The notes under the pieces were generated by a model. That model saw only the letters and a list, made by a program, of their open reading frames with translations, did not search any database and had not been told where the DNA came from. A stretch of 42,119 nucleotides of DNA, taken from the NCBI GenBank assembly GCA_937138415.1, contig CAKZPA010000049.1:1-42119 (forward strand), given 5' to 3'. This DNA comes from an uncultured Nitrospiraceae bacterium (lineage in GTDB: Bacteria > Nitrospirota > Thermodesulfovibrionia > Thermodesulfovibrionales > SM23-35). Positions 25,617 to 41,987 of the stretch are shown here, piece after piece (position 1 is the first letter of the stretch; every line of letters begins with the position of its first letter). The position numbers were made by a program, and so were the translations under genes.

Positions 25617-25871
25617 TTACTGTCTGAGCTCAAAATTCTTGATGAATTGCCCTATCTGCACTCCGAGATAGACGCACTTGATTCCATCCATGCAATCATC
25701 CGCGTCCTTTTTTTCGAGATGCGTCGTGAGTTCATGATTGTCTTTCGTGAACTTCACGATGTACGCATTCTTGGTCGCATCGAAGTCGAGGCTTACGGCG
25801 ATCCCCTTCTCCGAAATCTCCGGATACATCTCCCTGATCTTGTCTTGCAGCGCAACGTTCGTGTAACCCAT
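25617..25871 (-). CDS. hypothetical protein upstream of the dsrC-like gene
   Basis: The 84-residue protein starts MGYTNVALQDKIREMYPEIS and ends VQIGQFIKNFELRQ. GGAGG lies seven bases before the ATG. It has an alternating alpha/beta look with a Cys in CMDGIKCVYLG. It lies 21 bp ahead of the broken dsrC-like gene, so the two probably formed an operon. No named family is recognised. A structured repeat (copy A) sits directly upstream of its ribosome site and may influence expression. Confidence 0.75.
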   Translation of the reverse strand: MGYTNVALQDKIREMYPEISEKGIAVSLDFDATKNAYIVKFTKDNHELTTHLEKKDADDCMDGIKCVYLGVQIGQFIKNFELRQ

Positions 25872-25884
25872 AATGATTCCTCCT

Positions 25885-26060
25885 TCATCATTCATCCATT
25901 TTCTCATCGAGCAGAGCAGATGCAGTATCAGCGCGGCTTTACAGAGTGGTCGGCGCCGTAAGGCGAAGAACACTCTGTTTCTCGGAGATCTGCAAAGCAG
26001 ATCGCGAATGAGCGCTGACACTGCATCTGCTCTGATAGCCCATCATCTATGAATAAACTG
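25885..26060. repeat. structured palindromic element, copy A
   Basis: The core 25916-26034 is bounded by a 21-base inverted repeat (GAGCAGATGCAGTATCAGCGC at 25914-25934, with its partner ending at 26032) with one mismatch. Inside are two further stems: ACAGAGTG/CACTCTGT (25941-25978) enclosing a GCC-GTAA-GGC tip, and GATCTGC-AAA-GCAGATC (25987-26003). The whole could fold as a three-way junction. Outer sequences TTCAT..ATTTTCTCAT and ATGAATAAACTGG are also shared with copy B at 33700. It lies directly upstream of the 84-residue gene. The remaining 26061-26307 holds nothing recognised. Confidence 0.75.
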
Positions 26061-26307
26061 GGGTAGAGTGCAATATTCCCCCAGATTGTTCCTATATTTT
26101 AGTTCCTGTATTTTTTCGTCCCACTCACGGGTCGCGGGTTATAGGCCGTAAAGTAGAGCTACCACTTTTTTTCGAACGACAGAGATTCACTCGCTCGCGA
26201 CAGCACACGTGCTTCTCGGAGGCCTGCGCGGACTGGACATAACTCCACGGTACCGGATCCCCGTGACGCGCGCCTTCACTTTCCCGTCATTCGCGTTGTC
26301 CGCGCCA

Positions 26308-26532
26308 CTAAAATGTCCACCTCTTCTGCAACACATCGATAATTTCCCGCTGGAGAAGCATACGACGCTCCTGAATTTTCTTCAGGTCCTCACCGAGACG
26401 TCTCGCCATCGCCTCGATAGTATATTCTTTCGGCTGAAGTAACAGATGGAAAAATCCGATCTCGGCCGGCGACTGACCGTTCGGTGTGTGCGTGGGCTGG
26501 ACCAGCGATTCCCGCTCATTCGGTGGAGTCAT
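26308..26532 (-). CDS. hypothetical protein coupled to a REC protein
   Basis: The 74-residue frame starts at an ATG that overlaps the end of the upstream response regulator by 17 bp (MTPPNE against SYDSTE in the other frame). The body, GFFHLLLQPKEYTIEAMARR then RLGEDLKKIQERRMLLQREI, is strongly helical and could form a coiled coil. It ends in TAG. No family is recognised. The overlap suggests it works with, or is expressed in ratio with, the REC protein. Confidence 0.55.
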   Translation of the reverse strand: MTPPNERESLVQPTHTPNGQSPAEIGFFHLLLQPKEYTIEAMARRLGEDLKKIQERRMLLQREIIDVLQKRWTF

Positions 26533-27022
26533 AACTTCCGCCGCCTTGATTGTTTCCGATGTCAGCTTCCCGATCCCTGTAGTGCCCGCTCCCGTGGATG
26601 ACCGCGCGGAGAGTGGTAATGAGATCTCTCGAAAGATTGACCTTAGACACATACCCCGCGTACCCCGCCCGATAGATGTTTTCCTCACATACCTCATCGG
26701 GGAAGAGGCTCATGACCACGACCGGCACGTCGGACGCAGCGCTCATGATCTTCTTGAGCGCATCTACCCCTTGATCACCCGACAAGTCCAAATCGAGCAA
26801 CACGACATCGAATGCATGACGATGGAGCTCGTCGAAGACCTCTTGCTCATTCACTGCCTCCGATGTCACCACAGCGGCAAAATGGTCACTGATGACCAGT
26901 TTGATCAGTTGCCGAAAGAGACGGTTACTGTCGGCTATGAGAATCCGTACCGGTTCTCTCCCGTCGCAATGACCCTCTCCGACACTTCTGCACCAGAGCG
27001 AACCAGCTCCTCGCTGTGCCAT
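26516..27022 (-). CDS. single-domain response regulator (REC)
   Basis: The 168-residue protein carries one receiver domain: RILIADSNRLFRQL (acidic pocket), VVLLDLDLSGDQG (phospho-acceptor Asp), VVVMSLFPDE and GYVSKVN (conserved Lys). No DNA-binding domain follows; the last ~25 residues are polar. The N-terminal ~25 residues before the domain are not conserved-looking, but the only in-frame start is the ATG at 27022. It is encoded just downstream of a NarL-type regulator and a histidine kinase, so it may be a second target of that kinase. Confidence 0.75.
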   Translation of the reverse strand: MAQRGAGSLWCRSVGEGHCDGREPVRILIADSNRLFRQLIKLVISDHFAAVVTSEAVNEQEVFDELHRHAFDVVLLDLDLSGDQGVDALKKIMSAASDVPVVVMSLFPDEVCEENIYRAGYAGYVSKVNLSRDLITTLRAVIHGSGHYRDREADIGNNQGGGSYDSTE

Positions 27023-27161
27023 GACTTTTATTTATCATACACCGACGATACGCGCAATCCGCAGAATTCTCTTTTTTGTATGAGAAAAATTATCCTGCGT
27101 CTGCCAGTATTTTTCTTACAAGGAGGAGAAATCCCCCGTCAGTGACGGGTGCCGGGAAGCT

Positions 27162-27794
27162 TCAGTCCACCAGTCCATGTTTCGTCGCGTAATGCGTGAG
27201 TTCCATGTTGTTCTTCATGCCCATCTTGTCGAGCACTCGCGCCCTATACGTATAGACCGTTTTCACGCTCAGGGAGAGTTCACTCGCGATCGCGTGCATC
27301 GTTTTCCCTGAAGCGATCATTCTCAGGATCTGCATCTCTCGATCGGAGAGCTCTTCGTGGAGGGGCGTCTTAGCATCCGACACCATTTCGGTGAGGAGTT
27401 TTTCCGAAAATGATGAACTGACGTAGCGACCGCCGTTCAGTACCTTTCGCACAGCATTCACGAGCTCGTTGGGAATGCTGTCCTTCGTCACATACCCCGA
27501 TGCGCCGGACTTCAAAGCCCTCAGTGCATACTGTTCTTCCGGAAACATGCTCAAGATGAGAACGGGCAGTTTCGGTTTGAGGGCCTTTACCTGTCTCAGT
27601 ACATCGAGGCCATCCCTCCCCGGCATTGCAATGTCGAGAATGAGGAGGTCGACATCCTCTTGTCCGATGGCATCGATTACCTCTTGTCCGGTGCCAGCCT
27701 CGCCGGAGATGCGGCTATCGGGAACTTCGGAAAAGATACGCTTGATACCTTCTCTGACCACAGCGTGGTCATCGGCGACAAAGACCTTGATCAC
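27162..27794 (-). CDS. NarL/FixJ-family response regulator
   Basis: The 210-residue regulator has a receiver domain (KVFVADDHAVVREGIKRIFS; phospho-acceptor in LLILDIAMPGRDG; GYVTKDSIP) and a C-terminal LuxR-type helix-turn-helix (LSDREMQILRMIASGKT, LSLSVKTVYTYRARVL). It should bind DNA after phosphorylation. Its ATG overlaps the stop of the upstream histidine kinase by 4 bp (ATGA), the signature of a coupled two-component pair. Confidence 0.93.
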   Translation of the reverse strand: MIKVFVADDHAVVREGIKRIFSEVPDSRISGEAGTGQEVIDAIGQEDVDLLILDIAMPGRDGLDVLRQVKALKPKLPVLILSMFPEEQYALRALKSGASGYVTKDSIPNELVNAVRKVLNGGRYVSSSFSEKLLTEMVSDAKTPLHEELSDREMQILRMIASGKTMHAIASELSLSVKTVYTYRARVLDKMGMKNNMELTHYATKHGLVD

Positions 27795-28876
27795 GTTCCG
27801 ACCCCGCGATGAGACACGGGAATCTTCACGGTCACCCGTGTGCCGACGCCGACGGCTCCTTGAATCTCGAGATTGCCACCGAGAAAGTCAACCCGCTCCT
27901 TCATTCCTAAAATACCGAAAGATGTGAGAGTCGCAAGATCTTCGTCCCGAATCCCCCTCCCGTCATCCGTGATAGTGAGGATGAGCACGTGATCGACCTC
28001 AGCGAGAGAAACGTTGATTTTGGATGCTCCGGCATGCCGGGCGACGTTGTTCAGTGCCTCCTGGAGAATTCGAAAGAGAGCAATCGAATGCTCCATCGGA
28101 AGGTCGAAGTCTCTTACATTGAATGACAATTCCACTGTAATACCCGTCCTCTGCCCGAAATCCTTGACGAGCCACTCTATCGCTGCGGGGAACCCGAGAT
28201 AGTCGAGTACGCCTGGCCTCAGTTCTGCCGATATCCGCTGAATGACCTTGATAGCGGAATTGACGAGTTCGATATCCTTGCGTATCCTCTCCTTCAGGGT
28301 GTCCTGCTCCTCCGACATTTTCTTCTCGAGCCATGCCAGATCGATATTCAGCGCGGTCAAAACAGTGCCGAATTCATCGTGAATCTCACGCGCGATGTTC
28401 TTTTTCTCCGCTTCGACCGCGGACTGGAGATGCGAATAGAGGAGACGCAATTTTTCGCGAGACGCACTCAATTCTTCTTCCGCTTTCTTGCGATCGGTGA
28501 TGTCGATACCGAGCTCCAGGATACGAAAAGATCCATCATAATCCGTGAATGGGTAATTGAAAATGGTGTACGTTTTCCCGTCAGGACCTGTCCACTCCCA
28601 CTGCTGGGACCTGCGTTCCACGAGCACGTCGATGACCCGGCAGTCGTCGCACGGCATCTGACGCCGGTGGAAAAAGTCATGACACGAGCTATCCTTGGGA
28701 TCGCCGAAGCGCAGGAGAAATTCACGGTTTACGTAGGCAAAGCGGTAGTCGGTCGTCAGAAGGCAGACGTACCCGGGGATCTGCTCGAGCACCGAAAATA
28801 GCCGCCTTCGCTCGTTCGATACGATCTCATAAGCCGTCATCAGGTCGTCGGTGCGCTCCCGTACTCTCTCTTCCAA
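27791..28876 (-). CDS. histidine kinase, C-terminal half (PAS-HisKA_3-HATPase)
   Basis: This 361-residue part has a coiled coil, a PAS domain (LEQIPGYVCLLTTDYRFAYV through ILELGIDITDRKKAEEEL), a HisKA_3 dimerisation helix with the phospho-accepting His in AREIHDEFGTVLTALNIDL, and a HATPase (QEALNNVARHAGASKI, DDGRGI, GTRVTVKIPV). It is in the same frame as the PAS/GAF gene upstream, with only a TAG at 28939-28937 between. The best independent start is a TTG at 28876 or the ATG at 28840. It could be translated alone and still phosphorylate NarL, or be part of a pseudogene. Confidence 0.85.
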   Translation of the reverse strand: MEERVRERTDDLMTAYEIVSNERRRLFSVLEQIPGYVCLLTTDYRFAYVNREFLLRFGDPKDSSCHDFFHRRQMPCDDCRVIDVLVERRSQQWEWTGPDGKTYTIFNYPFTDYDGSFRILELGIDITDRKKAEEELSASREKLRLLYSHLQSAVEAEKKNIAREIHDEFGTVLTALNIDLAWLEKKMSEEQDTLKERIRKDIELVNSAIKVIQRISAELRPGVLDYLGFPAAIEWLVKDFGQRTGITVELSFNVRDFDLPMEHSIALFRILQEALNNVARHAGASKINVSLAEVDHVLILTITDDGRGIRDEDLATLTSFGILGMKERVDFLGGNLEIQGAVGVGTRVTVKIPVSHRGVGT

Positions 28877-28936
28877 CTCTTCATTTGCCCTCTGAAGCGC
28901 CTCTTTCGCCTCTCTTAGTTCGTCTTCCGCCCGCTT

Positions 28937-30340
28937 CTACAGGAGTGCGATCGCCGCGATATCGCAGAACGCCGTGGTTATGCGGACGTCATTGTCCGTA
29001 AAGCCGCCAGGCTTATTTCCAAGTCCGAACAAACCCACCACCTTGTTCTCGACTGTCATGGGGGCCATTATCACGTTGTCCAGTCGGACGTGTCCGTCAG
29101 GCATTAAGTGAGCCCACGCGCTCCCGGGGAAATTATTGTGGCGTAGAGCGCGACCGGTGCTGAAAACCTCGCCGCGCATTCCTCTAACGGGCATCGGCAG
29201 TGATGGATCGACGGTGCACTCCATTGCACCGGCATCGAGATACACTATCTCGTTTGCGGATCCATCGTCGCTCACCAGGGCGATATATCCGCATGTCGCA
29301 CCGACGATGCCCTTGCAGGCGCCGAATATCGCCTTTGCCGCTTCGGCATAGGAGCGACGCTGGAGAACTGCGCTCGATGCATCGAGCAAAACGGCTACTT
29401 CTTTCTGCCGTTGCTGCGACTCGCGGAGAGCGACGCGCAGTTCCTCTTCCGCCCGTCTGCGATCCGTTACATCAATCCCCGTCCCGATCACGAATTCGAC
29501 TTTCCCGTTCCCATCCAAGAGAACGGTATCCTTCCAGGCGATGAGACGAGATGTTCCGTCCTTCGCAACCCAGTGATTCTCGTGCGAGGTGGGGAATTTC
29601 CCCGCGAGGAGATGTCGAAACACTCGGCGCACGCGCCGAACTTCCTCGGGCAAGAGGAAAATGTCCCACACTAATTTGCCCTCGACTTCGCCGAATGTGT
29701 ACCCCGTCGTCCGCTCACATTCCTTGTTGAACTTCACAATCCGCCCTTTCCTATCCAGCACGACGACCAAGGCCCCTGCGGTCGAGAGGACGGCCGATAC
29801 AAAATCACGCTCCCTCGTGAGAAACTGTTCCACCTGAAGGATGTCCGATTCCATTTTCTTTCGGGCCGTGATGTCGTGAGCGTAAATCCGTATGGCCCGA
29901 AATTCAGGCGTATAATAGAGCCATTCTTCAAATACAGTACCCCTGACATCGACCTCACGGTACCACATCCTTCCCTTTCCCTTCCGCACATCGGCGAGAA
30001 TCTCTTCGATATCGCTCGGAAGGAAGACTTCTCCCCGGCTCTTTGGACGCACCTTCCCCAATGCTTTTTTCGCGGCATCATTGATGAATATAATTTTACC
30101 GCGCAGATTCACTTCCAGTACCGGATTCGAGTTCAATTGGGGGAAAGACGCCAAGCGACCCAGATCGGCAATCTGACGTCGCAGTGATCCTAAACGATCT
30201 GGCCCTTTCGTCTTTCCATGATCATTTCTGTCCTTTTTCACGCTCGAGATTTTCTGATGAGACGTTTGTGCAGCGGATCGCGGAACGGTTCTCATGAGAC
30301 CTTTGTTCTTTCTGGCCATCGCCGGCTCTTTCCTGCGCAT
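28937..30340 (-). CDS. histidine kinase, N-terminal half (PAS-PAS-GAF), ends at an in-frame amber
   Basis: The 467 residues hold a Lys/Arg-rich N-terminus, two PAS domains (PVLEVNLRGKIIFINDAAKK to YAHDITARKKMES; VLSTAGALVVVLDRKGRIVK to TGIDVTDRRRAEEE) and a GAF domain (YAEAAKAIFGACKGIVGATC to ITTAFCDIAAIALL). After the amber codon the frame runs straight into KRAEDELREAKEALQRANEE and the kinase half, which is how GAF-linked kinases normally continue. I therefore read one ancestral sensor kinase of about 850 residues cut in two. The domains suggest sensing of redox or a small molecule in the cytoplasm. Confidence 0.85.
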   Translation of the reverse strand: MRRKEPAMARKNKGLMRTVPRSAAQTSHQKISSVKKDRNDHGKTKGPDRLGSLRRQIADLGRLASFPQLNSNPVLEVNLRGKIIFINDAAKKALGKVRPKSRGEVFLPSDIEEILADVRKGKGRMWYREVDVRGTVFEEWLYYTPEFRAIRIYAHDITARKKMESDILQVEQFLTRERDFVSAVLSTAGALVVVLDRKGRIVKFNKECERTTGYTFGEVEGKLVWDIFLLPEEVRRVRRVFRHLLAGKFPTSHENHWVAKDGTSRLIAWKDTVLLDGNGKVEFVIGTGIDVTDRRRAEEELRVALRESQQRQKEVAVLLDASSAVLQRRSYAEAAKAIFGACKGIVGATCGYIALVSDDGSANEIVYLDAGAMECTVDPSLPMPVRGMRGEVFSTGRALRHNNFPGSAWAHLMPDGHVRLDNVIMAPMTVENKVVGLFGLGNKPGGFTDNDVRITTAFCDIAAIALL

Positions 30341-30634
30341 TCACTCCGATTATATCGGCTTTCCACGCCTCATTGCAATGAGCCGGAAAAGGCAATCGCG
30401 TCACTCGCTGTAAGAATTCTTTCTACAGATGCAAAAGCGAAATGATTACAGAAAAATCAGAATATTACGGATAGCGAACATCTTTGGAAACTGTCTATTC
30501 TATGAATATATGAATAAATATCAGGTCGATCATGGAGAGGAGGTGTCGCAAGGGACGGGGACGGACGTGGCGTATTCGATGTGTGTGTGATGTAAATGCT
30601 AATGAACACATTTATGGAAGTGAAGGAGGCGAAA

Positions 30635-31099
30635 ATGACACAACCTACGACAGATAAGATCGTACATCATTTCAGGGAATGGCAGAACTTGGAGAACGAG
30701 ACATACAGTCTCGCCGATAATCTGCAGCAGAAAACGAGCAACCCTTTCATACGAATGATCATGGAAGTGATCAAGCGGGACTCTCAGAAACACAAAGTAA
30801 TGCAGCAATTCATCATTGATGCACTGACAAAAGAGGCCGTTCATTTGACCCCTGAGGAGCTGATTCCCCTCGCCGAGATTCTCGATAATCATATAAAAGC
30901 GGAAGCTCGGTCGATGGCGCTTGCCAATGCGTGTGCCCTCGAAGAGAGCAGAAATTTCTTCGTCGATTTTGTCGTTGAAGCTCTCTTGGCAGACGAGGCG
31001 AAACACCACTCGATGTTGAGGACGCTCGACCACGTGAAGGGGGCAGTGTATCAGTACGGGCAGGCAAAGGAGCAACACATAACCGATGCATTTCGGTGA
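30635..31099 (+). CDS. ferritin-like domain protein
   Basis: The 154-residue helical protein starts at an ATG with AAGGAGG six bases upstream; a short in-frame extension further upstream is not needed. Helices carry carboxylate/His pairs typical of ferritin-like diiron folds: NLENETYSLADNL, IKRDSQKHKVMQQF, DNHIKAEARSMALAN and ALLADEAKHHSMLRTL. A role in iron or oxidative-stress handling fits the neighbouring redox proteins, but the metal content is inferred. It is the first gene of a plus-strand run. The 30341-30634 stretch before it holds its presumed promoter but no gene. Confidence 0.65.
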   Translation: MTQPTTDKIVHHFREWQNLENETYSLADNLQQKTSNPFIRMIMEVIKRDSQKHKVMQQFIIDALTKEAVHLTPEELIPLAEILDNHIKAEARSMALANACALEESRNFFVDFVVEALLADEAKHHSMLRTLDHVKGAVYQYGQAKEQHITDAFR

Positions 31100-31153
31100 A
31101 GTGTAATCTCATGACAACCGGACAATTTCATCTGTCGTTCGGCTGGAGGCGAG

Positions 31154-31669
31154 ATGACAGAGGAGGTAAAAGTGAAGAACCAACGTCTCACAATAATGGT
31201 CATGTTGCTCATAGGAGCAACATTTCTGTTCCCCGATTTCTCCATTGGAAATCCGGGGAAAAGAGTGAGTTACCCCGAGGGATACCGCCAATGGACGCAT
31301 GTGAAATCGATGGTCATAGAAAAGGGGCATCCGCTTTACGATTCGTTCGGTGGCATTCATCACGTGTATGCGAATAGACGCGCTCTTGAGGCGCTCACGA
31401 CCGGCACGCCCTTTCCTGATGGGTCTGTTTTGGTATTCGATCTCCTCGAGGCAAAAAGTGCCGACAACTCCATTGTCGAGGGACAGAGGAGATTCATCGG
31501 CGTAATGCAGAAAAACGCGAAGATGTTCCGTGAAACAGCCGGATGGGGTTTCGAGGCTTTCACGGCAGACTCGAGGGAACGAATCGTCAAAGACCCTAAA
31601 AATGAATGCTTCACCTGTCACGAGGCGCAGAAGAAGAGCGATTATGTATTCAGCGCATACAGGAAATAA
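31154..31669 (+). CDS. cytochrome P460-family protein
   Basis: The 171-residue exported protein has a signal peptide (QRLTIMVMLLIGATFLF) and the P460 pattern: YPEGYRQWTHVKSMVI, GGIHHVYAN, FPDGSVLVFDLLEA and a single haem site CFTCHEAQKKSDYVFS near the C-terminus. P460 cytochromes oxidise hydroxylamine or detoxify NO in the periplasm through a lysine-crosslinked haem. An octaheme cytochrome 6 kb away hints at shared nitrogen-oxide chemistry. Two starts are possible: ATG 31154 (GGAGG upstream) and GTG 31172, six codons on, with a stronger AGGAGGT site. Confidence 0.9.
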   Translation: MTEEVKVKNQRLTIMVMLLIGATFLFPDFSIGNPGKRVSYPEGYRQWTHVKSMVIEKGHPLYDSFGGIHHVYANRRALEALTTGTPFPDGSVLVFDLLEAKSADNSIVEGQRRFIGVMQKNAKMFRETAGWGFEAFTADSRERIVKDPKNECFTCHEAQKKSDYVFSAYRK

Positions 31670-31830
31670 CCATCCTCGACAGAACAAAAGAGTGTGGGAC
31701 AAAGGCGACGAGAGGAATATCTGCCAAGCGATAATATGCCTAATAGAAGTGCGGCAATGGCATTGCGAAGCCCGCTGAAGGAAAGACGCGGCAATCTCTT
31801 TATCAATCCCCGTGAGAGAGGAGGAATAAC

Positions 31831-32037
31831 ATGTCGGTAGTGAAAAAGACGACCAGAAAGGTGGCCCCCGAGAAAACACCCCGGGGCGGAAAATCACAAA
31901 AGGCGATGAAAGGAGATACGTACACATGTAATGTGTGCGGATTGGTTGTGTCCGTCGATACGGTCTGTGAATGTATCGATGCGTGCAACATTCTCTGCTG
32001 CGAAAAACCAATGAAATTAAAGAAGAAGAGAGCTTAG
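31831..32037 (+). CDS. small Cys-rich redox/zinc-ribbon protein, copy 1
   Basis: The 68-residue protein has a Lys/Arg-rich N-terminal ~25 residues and a Cys core: YTCNVCGLVVSVDTVCECID then ACNILCCEKPMKLKK. The pattern CxxCG..C.C..C...CC.KP resembles rubredoxin/desulforedoxin-like or zinc-ribbon folds that hold one metal. GGAGGA precedes the ATG. It ends in TAG. A close paralogue lies at 34205. A role in electron transfer or metal buffering is inferred. Confidence 0.8.
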   Translation: MSVVKKTTRKVAPEKTPRGGKSQKAMKGDTYTCNVCGLVVSVDTVCECIDACNILCCEKPMKLKKKRA

Positions 32038-32108
32038 GAGAGCATATCTTCCACTAAGAAACCATAGTTGAGCAACATTCTCTCATGTTCGCAAACGCAA
32101 GGTGTTGG

Positions 32109-32138
32109 GAATCTTTCCGCAAAAAACGGGAAGGATTC
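32109..32138. other. hairpin between zinc-ribbon and cupin genes
   Basis: GAATCTTTCC and GGAAGGATTC flank an A-rich loop, giving about ten paired bases. It could end the upstream transcript, but no T-run follows, so its role is open. Confidence 0.35.
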
Positions 32139-32170
32139 TGTAACGCAATCGATAGACAGTGGAGGAAATC

Positions 32171-32532
32171 ATGGAACGAGCCGAGATAAAGAGTTTCCGT
32201 AATCCTGATGAAGTGAGAACATTCCCCAAGGGCACACTTGAGCTGATCAGATCGGCGGGACCACTATAGGGCGTGCCATATTTGAGCCCGGATGGAAGTG
32301 GTCAGAATCTGTCCAACCGCTTGTTCAGACGAAAAGCTGCGAAGCACCTCACTTCCAGTATCATGTGGCCGGCACGCTTATGGTCATCGTGGACGACGGC
32401 ACGCAATTTCAGTGTGAGGCGGGCGACGTCTCCCTTTTACCGTCGGGGCACGACGCCTGGGTCGTTGGAAATGAGCATGTTGTTGTCGTCGACTTTCAGG
32501 GCACGATCGATTGCGCCAAGAAAGCCACATAG
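32171..32532 (+). pseudogene. cupin-domain protein with a frameshift
   Basis: An ATG at 32171 with GGAGGA upstream opens MERAEIKSFRNPDEVRTFPK and ELIR, then a TAG follows at 32267-32269. The next frame over takes up the expected cupin sequence: GGTTIGRAIFEPGWKWSE, CEAPHFQYHVAGTLMV, CEAGDVSLLPSGHDAWVV and VVVVDFQGTI, ending at TAG 32530-32532. A single-base deletion near 32250-32258 restores a ~120-residue cupin with metal-binding His in HFQYHV and GHDAW. It is therefore a recently broken gene, or one sequencing error. Its enzyme activity, if any, is not predictable. Confidence 0.8.
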
Positions 32533-32710
32533 AGAATATACTGCCATTCTTGCAGACTATCTGTCAGGGGTTGCCTATGGCGGTTAAATTGATTATGATT
32601 GAATGAAAGGTGAAGTCGAGTTCTTATTCTTCAGGTCTACGGTGAGCCACGTGCTGAAAAAGGGTTGCTCTTGTAAGCGCGACGAAATTACATGATTAAG
32701 GGAGGGCGAT

Positions 32711-33619
32711 ATGTTTACGAGGGTTTTGACGGCAACCGACATGATGGAGGCATGCGATGTTGTGGTAATTTCGGCTCTGGAAATAGCGAAAAAAGAGAAT
32801 GCCAAGCTCTATGTCTTGCACGTATTGGAACCGACATACTTTCATGAATGCGGTCCTCTGGAAACGGTGAGACACTTCAAGACCGGGGAAGAAATTGCTG
32901 CGAGCGCTGAATACGGGGAAGCAGTCAAGAACGAACTCGATCAGAAATGCAGTGGAGCCCTTGCACCATATGGCAATTATGAGATACTCATATCCTACGG
33001 ACGGCCAAGTGTGGAGGTGAGAAGGTGGTCACGCAAGTGCGGCGCCGATCTCGTCGTGCTCGGCGCCCATGCGGGAAAGGTCGAAGAGGGTTTCATAGGT
33101 AATCGCATCGGCAATACCGTCGAAGACGTAATCATGCTTTCCACCGTTCCCGTGATGGTCGTCAACCGTCTCGTCCCGAGGGAAAAATTCGACTTTAAGA
33201 AGGTCATGGTGTGCATTGATTTTTCCCAATCCTGTCGCTATGCCGTCGATTTTTCCGTGAAGTTGGCGAAAAAATACGGGTCTCACCTCCACGTTTTTCA
33301 CATGGCGCCGGCGCGTCAAACGGGGGAGACGATGAGTTCGAGCGAAAGGCACGATCTGCAAAAGCGCCTTCTGGACTTTTGCGGTATTTACGACAAGGTC
33401 TCCCATGACTACACCATTGCGGAAGGTACGCATCCTTCCACGGAAATTCTGCGCTATGCGGACGCGAACGGCGTCGACACGATCGTCATGGGGTCTCATA
33501 CGTCGATGTCCGACAAGAGCTGGTATGTGGGAAGCGCCGTCGAGCGCGTCAGCGCTGGGTCGTCGTGTCCCGTGATGATTGTCACTCATCCCGAGATATT
33601 CGCGAAGTCGGAAAAATGA
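32711..33619 (+). CDS. tandem universal stress protein (UspA, two domains)
   Basis: The 302-residue protein contains two UspA domains. The first runs from RVLTATDMMEACDVVVISAL to VVNRLVPRE with the ATP-loop-like GAHAGKVEEGFIGNRIGNTV. The second runs from KVMVCIDFSQSCRYAVDFSV to GSHTSMSDKSWYVGSAVERV and SSCPVMIV. GGGAGGG precedes the ATG. Usp proteins bind ATP and help survival under stress. It ends the plus-strand stress/redox run. Confidence 0.92.
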   Translation: MFTRVLTATDMMEACDVVVISALEIAKKENAKLYVLHVLEPTYFHECGPLETVRHFKTGEEIAASAEYGEAVKNELDQKCSGALAPYGNYEILISYGRPSVEVRRWSRKCGADLVVLGAHAGKVEEGFIGNRIGNTVEDVIMLSTVPVMVVNRLVPREKFDFKKVMVCIDFSQSCRYAVDFSVKLAKKYGSHLHVFHMAPARQTGETMSSSERHDLQKRLLDFCGIYDKVSHDYTIAEGTHPSTEILRYADANGVDTIVMGSHTSMSDKSWYVGSAVERVSAGSSCPVMIVTHPEIFAKSEK

Positions 33620-33699
33620 TTTCTTCGCGCAGAGTGCGTCTATGGGATTCCAACGATAAACCTCGAGACAAAGGCAGCTCAACATGATAGCCACTTAGT

Positions 33700-33872
33700 C
33701 CAGTTTATTCATGCACTATGTCCATCAGAGCAGATGCCCTATCAGCACTCATGCGCGACCCGCTCCGCAGATCTCGGAAAAACAAAGTGTTTGTCGCCTT
33801 ACGGCGGTGAACACTCTGTCAAGCCGCGCTGATCCCGTATCTGCTCCGCTCAATGAGAAAATTTATGAATAA
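33700..33872. repeat. structured palindromic element, copy B (inverted relative to A)
   Basis: Copy B is the reverse complement of copy A: GAGCAGATGCCCTATCAGCAC at 33728-33748 pairs imperfectly with the segment near 33824-33844, and CACTCTGT and CAAAGTGT (inside the element) match A's inner arm. The small stem GATCTGC-GGA-GCGGGTC (plus-strand reverse) keeps pairing through G-T wobbles where A has Watson-Crick pairs. The shared outer edges TTTATTCATG and CAATGAGAAAATTTATGAAT extend the homology. It lies just upstream of a TATAAT and the coaE fragment. Confidence 0.75.
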
Positions 33873-33878
33873 TGTAGG

Positions 33879-33884
33879 TATAAT
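33879..33884 (+). promoter_or_regulatory. TATAAT -10 element before the coaE fragment
   Basis: A perfect TATAAT lies seven bases before the ATG at 33892, so transcription would start at the codon itself. No good -35 box is present at the expected distance; the end of copy B occupies that position. Confidence 0.5.
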
Positions 33885-33891
33885 ACTGGCG

Positions 33892-33975
33892 ATGTTGATC
33901 ATCGGGCTTACGGGTAATTTTGGAAGTGGAAAGAGCAGGGGGAGTCTTATCAATAGGTGTGTAAAAAGCAGTTAG
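33892..33975 (+). pseudogene. coaE: dephospho-CoA kinase N-terminal remnant
   Basis: The frame reads MLIIGLTGNFGSGKS, the P-loop start of dephospho-CoA kinase, then diverges (RGSLINRCVKSS) and stops at TAG. Only the first ~15 residues are coaE-like; the remaining ~190 residues are missing. The site probably records a deletion or recombination at the end of the repeat. The rest of the gap to 34204 has no gene I can support. Confidence 0.65.
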
Positions 33976-34204
33976 GCGGCCATCCTTTCAATCGCCGTTA
34001 TTTCATGCTCCATTATTCCATCCGCTGCTTCATCCTTCACCTCCGTGCAAAGGTTCTCACCGCTCATGCGGAGCGTCTATCCTCTACACCTTCGGCCTGT
34101 CCATCTCTCCAGGGTCGCAGTATACAGCGTAACGCCATCTTCGAAATATGTTATGAGCATCAACGTTGAATTAGATTTTAACAAATATCGTCAGGAGGGA
34201 TCTT

Positions 34205-34435
34205 ATGCCGACAGCGCACAAGGCAAGTAAAAAGACGGTCAGTGAGAGGAAAACGATGGTTAGAAAATCAAAAAAAGCGATGAAGGGCGATAAGTATACC
34301 TGTGATGTTTGTGGGTTGGTCGTTTCAGTCGATGCAGTCTGTGACTGTATTGATGTCTGTAACATTCTCTGCTGCGGCAAACCAATGAGGCTTAAAAAAG
34401 TAACACGGGGGAGAGGGTCCACTCTGAATAGGTAA
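34205..34435 (+). CDS. small Cys-rich redox/zinc-ribbon protein, copy 2
   Basis: The 76-residue protein is a paralogue of the one at 31831: KAMKGDKYTCDVCGLVVSVD, AVCDCIDVCNILCC, GKPMRLKK. The cysteine spacing is identical and the basic N-terminus differs. AGGAGGG precedes the ATG. It ends in TAA and a short basic tail (RGRGSTLNR). It sits convergent with the PDO gene. Confidence 0.8.
   Translation: MPTAHKASKKTVSERKTMVRKSKKAMKGDKYTCDVCGLVVSVDAVCDCIDVCNILCCGKPMRLKKVTRGRGSTLNR

Positions 34436-41868: not shown

Positions 41869-41987
<119 letters not shown>

Follow-up and report, generated by a model that had tools for sequence, protein, structure and literature searches.

The stretch of DNA considered here, contig CAKZPA010000049.1 of assembly GCA_937138415.1 (42,119 nucleotides from an uncultured Nitrospiraceae bacterium; hereafter the window), holds two inverted copies of a palindromic sequence, A and B, and raises the question of what this repeat is and whether its fold matters. 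The copies belong to a previously uncatalogued family of structured, strand-specific, dispersed and mobile elements with a wide reach, which is not in Rfam. Its members are non-coding, about 125-215 bp long and present in many dispersed copies. The three-way junction that they form is under selection and has been kept through massive compensatory change. We are inclined, with some reserve, to see in them a non-autonomous mobile family with a structured RNA that would bind CsrA in hosts where CsrA exists.

Copies A (25882-26064, plus strand) and B (33700-33878, minus strand) are 81% identical (E 1.0e-42) in a DNA search of their own genome, and 83% identical over 155 nt in an ungapped comparison. 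The two inverted palindromes described in an earlier note on this DNA are therefore real, as is the three-way junction proposed there, with two internal stems and an outer inverted repeat given as about 21 bases, here about 22 bp. Its reading of the inner stem as GATCTGC/GCAGATC in A and GATCTGC/GCGGGTC in B is also correct, two G.T wobbles preserving the pairing in B. Folded as RNA, A gives -80.3 kcal/mol (z -6.6) and its reverse strand -86.3 kcal/mol (z -7.6); the fold of B alone is less clean (z -4.6). The edges of B (TAGTCCAGTTTATTCAT.../...ATGAATAATGTAGGTA) lie between TA dinucleotides, as do those of a third good copy on contig C42, in agreement with the common outer edges noted before; A has a TA at its right edge only. 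The features of the two copies are as follows (R2 is a covariance model introduced below).

25882-26063, plus strand: element copy A, on the strand with GCGG...CTCGGAG...CGAATGAG (R2 94 bits, E 4e-19)
25912-25933, plus strand: left arm of outer stem P1 of A (fold; P1 covariation)
25941-25978, plus strand: hairpin 1 of A, loop CGTAAG, without GGA (fold, loop comparison)
25981-25987, plus strand: junction motif CTCGGAG of A (motif shared among copies)
25988-26002, plus strand: hairpin 2 of A, loop without GGA (fold, loop comparison)
26003-26014, plus strand: junction motif CGCGAATGAGCG of A, family consensus CGAGAATGAGCG (motif comparison)
26012-26034, plus strand: right arm of outer stem P1 of A (fold)
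26064-26065, no strand: TA at the right edge of A; the left edge is CT, with no TA (sequence)
33696-33697, no strand: TA left of B (sequence)
33698-33878, minus strand: element copy B, inverted relative to A (DNA search; R2 E 1.6e-10)
33716-33854, minus strand: portion of B matched by covariance models
33879-33880, no strand: TA right of B, overlapping a TATAAT pointed out in the earlier note (sequence)

A dispersed family with a conserved three-way junction

DNA search of the host genome (G000) found three good copies, and covariance search a further two that are degenerate (C9:48439 and C36:48800); at least seven close copies are also present in G002, a genome from a related genus. A covariance model built from eight copies (R1) matched 18 of the 20 genomes of the host's family, including some without sequence similarity in the stems. 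All R1 matches have the architecture GAGCGGATTT - hairpin 1 - ACCTCGGAG - hairpin 2 - CGAGAATGAGCG, and the model reaches genomes without stem similarity because the junction motifs are common to them while the stems are unrelated but complementary. A junction motif scan over about 85,000 named genomes found at least 119 stretches, mostly in Thermodesulfovibrionales and other Nitrospirota metagenome-assembled genomes (MAGs); among the matches listed are also Desulfobulbaceae and Desulfurivibrio (Desulfobacterota), Latescibacterota and Omnitrophota. Lone matches in Rhizobiales, Gemmatimonadota and Spechtbacteria MAGs are possibly misbinned contigs or chance, and some exact matches (L145, L164) fall in coding sequence and are apparently due to chance. 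The viral contigs scanned by motif gave zero matches. For statistics 141 copies were used, the presence of P1 being required.

A second covariance model, R2, made from 93 sequences, placed the element in 104 of the 176 genomes of the order with no more than 19 candidates considered per genome. Under a looser cap R2 counts at least 111 copies in genome G052, 46 in G081, 21 in a closed chromosome and 25 in Desulfurivibrio sp. AMeS2. A single match came from the negative control, which consisted of 89 kb of unrelated transposase loci. The earlier note had left it to a covariance search to find either many copies with compensatory changes or only these two with none, and the former is decisively the case. 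Rfam gave no relevant match in the window at the gathering cut-off and, at E 5, nothing relevant in 13 Nitrospirota loci and five others. No repeat with this junction motif, and no mobile decoy for CsrA, was found in the literature, subscription papers and supplements lying outside the search.

In an alignment of 93 copies, which was fitted to a model and hence is biased towards structure, 93.6% of stem cells are paired, compared with 61.0% when the 3' letters are shuffled and 34-46% when they are slid. Two-sided changes number 1300, against 371 after shuffling, and occur in 42 of the 46 pairs; none of 500 shuffles reached any observed pairing or double-change value. When the copies are anchored on the junction motifs only, P1 is 86% Watson-Crick paired, against 34% with arms exchanged between copies, the presence of 12 of 20 pairs being a condition for including a copy in this count. 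The length of P1 keeps to a narrow range, mostly 20-26, and the junction letters GCGG, CCTCGGAG and CGAGAATGAG are invariant while stem letters change almost freely. In two loci (L326 1500-1715 of G008 and L321 1500-1677 of G005) an extra palindrome, CCCCCCTT...AAGGGGGG, enlarges hairpin 1, as if a second repeat had been inserted.

On the GAGCGG strand, P1 has 121 G.T against 27 A.C pairs among 93 cluster representatives; 58 clusters lean towards G.T and seven towards A.C (p 4e-11), and the excess is alike in the window's family (25 vs 5) and outside it (96 vs 22). Equal numbers would be expected of a duplex or a symmetric cruciform, and therefore one strand folds; the comparison fits RNA and single-stranded DNA alike. 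For a replication-strand comparison, the GC skew of the closed chromosome G176 is too weak for placing the origin. We infer that the folded strand acts as RNA, and such a function is likely. The suggestion of a mobile element resembling a miniature inverted-repeat transposable element (MITE), selected for a three-way-junction fold with wobbles on one strand, is supported.

Loop sequences and csrA

Copies from outside the window's family have uniform loops despite differing stems (AGGAU, AUGGAU, AGGGAU, CAUGGAGG and CAGGANG). Loops of CsrB carry CAGGA(U/A/C)G, and the CsrA consensus from systematic evolution of ligands by exponential enrichment (SELEX) is RUACARGGAUGU (PMC7652899). The loops match this CsrA site and, if they serve as one, should follow the presence of csrA, which was scored by a PF02599 search. 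PF02599 is absent from the host and all 20 genomes of its family, and also from the genomes of families f2 and f13; it is present in most hosts of f7, f12 and other phyla. In a strict loop set of 94 copies from 48 genomes, a GGA loop is found in 41 of 44 copies in csrA-bearing genomes versus 10 of 50 in genomes without csrA. Counted by genome, with kinship ignored, the figures are 22 of 23 versus 4 of 25 (Fisher p 1e-8). The GGA forms in csrA-bearing hosts include CAGGAUG and ANGGAU, the CsrB-type CsrA site; the three good copies of the window's host are without GGA loops. On these similarities, a transcript of the element would probably bind CsrA in hosts that have it, a role that the earlier note had not anticipated.

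Mobility and the choice among explanations

One Latescibacterota locus, L078, carries the element at a site where locus L084 reads straight through, the flanks being 93% identical on the left and 87% on the right. In L078 it lies between AAGAAGTA and CTAGACG, and L084 reads AAGAAGTAACTACACG; the insertion is about 139 bp and is compatible with the absence of a duplication or with a TA duplication that has lost one base. A second presence/absence pair, L116 vs L061, is less clean. Copies are dispersed and differ in presence at the same site in relatives; the element is therefore mobile, and is best read as non-autonomous and MITE-like. A further candidate for an empty site, L083/L065, was rejected, because a P1 remnant in L065 indicates deletion.

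In the window's family the core lies inside terminal inverted repeats (TIRs), TAACCCrgATTATTCATAAATTT, often ending in TA. The TIR occurs in 15 of the 20 family genomes, and the reversed control gave zero; pairs 80-215 bp apart were found, most of them enclosing the core at a spacing of 163-219 bp, and there are deletion derivatives of 80-132 bp. Thermodesulfovibrio-like copies lie in a different repeat pair (AGTGTCCGGTAAA.../...TTTATCGGACAGT), and copies from Latescibacterota and Omnitrophota cease to be similar beyond P1; outside the window's family only P1 serves as a terminal inverted repeat. TA shows no general excess beside P1, and a general TA duplication at the stem ends was not seen. 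Two variants of the TIR-bounded elements may be mentioned. In G002 a 98-bp derivative (L016 1471-1569) has lost both hairpins, with the P1 arms joined and the TIRs kept. G011, a genome without core matches, has two elements of 252-292 bp (L305 1271-1523 and L320 1231-1523) with the same TIR and a different interior; they share a reading frame, FIKFAKKIASNPENFGIIE, possibly the remnant of an autonomous relative.

We propose that the element inserts as a small non-autonomous unit whose folded strand would act as RNA. In csrA-bearing hosts the GGA hairpin loops would bind CsrA, either as a decoy or in placing nearby mRNA under CsrA. In lineages without csrA, including the window's host, the loops would have drifted and the junction core alone would be kept, presumably through another recognizer such as a mobilizing protein or another RNA-binding partner. 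We offer more tentatively, as possible rather than probable, the wider proposal of a cross-phylum mobile RNA tied to CsrA, with two CsrA hairpins per copy, serving as decoy or portable switch and shedding the sites, not the junction, after loss of CsrA.

Several observations weigh against our main reading. The association with CsrA is correlative and drawn from few independent lineages, and the genomes without csrA are mostly from three families, possibly one clade. Genome G080 has no csrA found and GGA in five of five copies, G186, G194 and G013 likewise have GGA, and G029 has csrA and no GGA in the copies scored; some of these exceptions are MAGs whose completeness is unknown. The junction core is retained where CsrA is absent, and CsrA binding is therefore not its only reason to exist. 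The stems below the loops are also longer than CsrA usually prefers (PMC7652899). No autonomous partner was found: of the 20 family genomes 16 have no IS630-type DDE_3 genes, Y1 transposase genes do not adjoin the copies (1 of 30 Y1 loci, the background density), and no family recurs among 147 neighboring proteins. Around the IS630-type genes in the other four genomes no matching end pair was found, in a search limited here to IS630-type genes. As candidate partners, IS630 DDE_3 was rejected for its absence from most of the family genomes, and the Y1/HUH transposase because it is not adjacent and is missing from three element-rich genomes.

An ordinary DNA-level MITE, with inverted repeats for a DDE transposase and with structure and GGA loops as by-products of shared ancestry, would account for the TA-ended family TIRs, the internally deleted 80-132 bp derivatives and the dispersal of copies among housekeeping genes. 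It would give no reason, however, for the internal hairpins to co-vary, for the junction letters to stay fixed or for pairing to be kept between copies whose stems are wholly different; the asymmetry of G.T over A.C is unexpected under double-stranded recognition, the loop letters track csrA, and the TIR is confined to the window's family, Thermodesulfovibrio-like copies having another. We regard this explanation as unlikely. A single-stranded-DNA element moved by a Y1/HUH transposase (IS200/IS605 or RAYT-like), in the manner of REP/REPIN or IS608 ends, seems quite improbable to us: copies adjoin Y1 genes at 1 of 30 loci only, G069, G097 and G099 lack Y1_Tnp at E 1e-6 despite at least 17 copies each, and the GGA loops tracking csrA are left unexplained, even if the strand-specific fold tolerating G.T, the L078 insertion without obvious target duplication and the greater frequency of Y1_Tnp genes in element-bearing genomes (Fisher p 1e-4) all suit it.

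There is very little to recommend a host-owned, immobile cis-acting regulatory RNA, whether leader or 3' untranslated region element. Gene ends are indeed only tens of bases away from copies and A may be a leader, but the neighbors have no common function, copies stand in either orientation, neighbors are largely not conserved across species, and neither at least 111 copies in 2.8 Mb nor filled and empty sites are expected. Integron attC-like recombination sites share an imperfect palindrome, a one-strand fold and variable stems with the element; by eye, conserved RYYYAAC/GTTRRRY boxes are lacking at the stem ends (occasional TIR matches only), copies stand singly between housekeeping genes, and no cassette arrays were seen, though no search was aimed at them or at intI; this identity is scarcely credible.

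Known repeats, gene context and the window

The ERIC/IRU, Correia (NEMIS/CREE), RUP and CIR repeats (PMC2229807) are likewise intergenic, non-coding inverted repeats of about 100-200 bp, some with TA termini, whose transcripts would form long stems; CIR has arms and a linker, as here. Each of those repeats is limited to a single genus or a few and can be recognized by sequence, whereas the present family spans several phyla, its stems are unrecognizable between lineages with the junction alone shared, and its loops have CsrA-type sites in csrA-bearing hosts. CsrB, CsrC, RsmY and RsmZ (PMC7652899) resemble it in having CAGGA(U/A/C)G or ANGGAN in hairpin loops, and suggest CsrA as the likely partner. 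Unlike these RNAs, which are products of one or two dedicated genes, the present element exists as dispersed mobile copies, has only two GGA hairpins on a three-way junction, and keeps its fixed junction where CsrA is absent. With REP/REPIN and RAYT it has in common palindromes dispersed between genes and possible single-strand recognition, but it is much larger, has a three-way junction, and shows no tag tetranucleotide and no adjacent Y1 gene. If our proposal is right, a widespread structured repeat, with a lasting junction and stems that are completely replaced, has been missed by sequence searches, and a mobile-element RNA engages a global post-transcriptional regulator. Titration or rewiring of a regulatory protein by multi-copy repeats would become testable, and loss of the protein would provide a natural experiment on the fate of binding sites.

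Around 211 copies, 149 stop ends and 146 start ends of flanking genes lie within 300 bp, at median distances of 23 and 35.5, respectively; a mobile regulatory leader placed by start codons in one orientation, as had been suggested, is thus not supported as a general rule. By simple open reading frame calls, copies without GGA loops are opposite to the neighboring genes in 135 cases and in the same orientation in 58, and those with GGA loops in 66 and 56; the antisense excess is limited to copies without GGA loops. The neighbors are housekeeping genes, with 251 Pfam families in 147 proteins and none recurring.

In the window, the claim that each copy ends at a gene start stands for A, where the Shine-Dalgarno sequence of an 84-residue gene (25617-25871, minus strand; no Pfam match at E 0.1) abuts the edge. 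Its position makes A a putative leader of this gene. For B the claim is weak: the coaE-like start after it (33894-33974, plus strand) is a fragment of about 27 codons only (MLIIGLTGNFGSGKSRGSLINRCVKSS*, with the P-loop GLTGNFGSGKS), and its match to CoaE is weak (15 residues, E 0.02, below the cut-off). B is flanked by the gene of a universal stress protein on one side and this truncated coaE-like fragment on the other. The most fitting view of the window copies is that they are inherited or older insertions. A 196-nt direct repeat with 72% identity brackets the universal stress protein gene and B (31819-32014 and 34193-34388, plus strand), and its second copy (34193-34388) overlaps a small desulfoferrodoxin-like gene. 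A 5S rRNA gene lies at 41869-41986 on the minus strand (Rfam, 103 bits).

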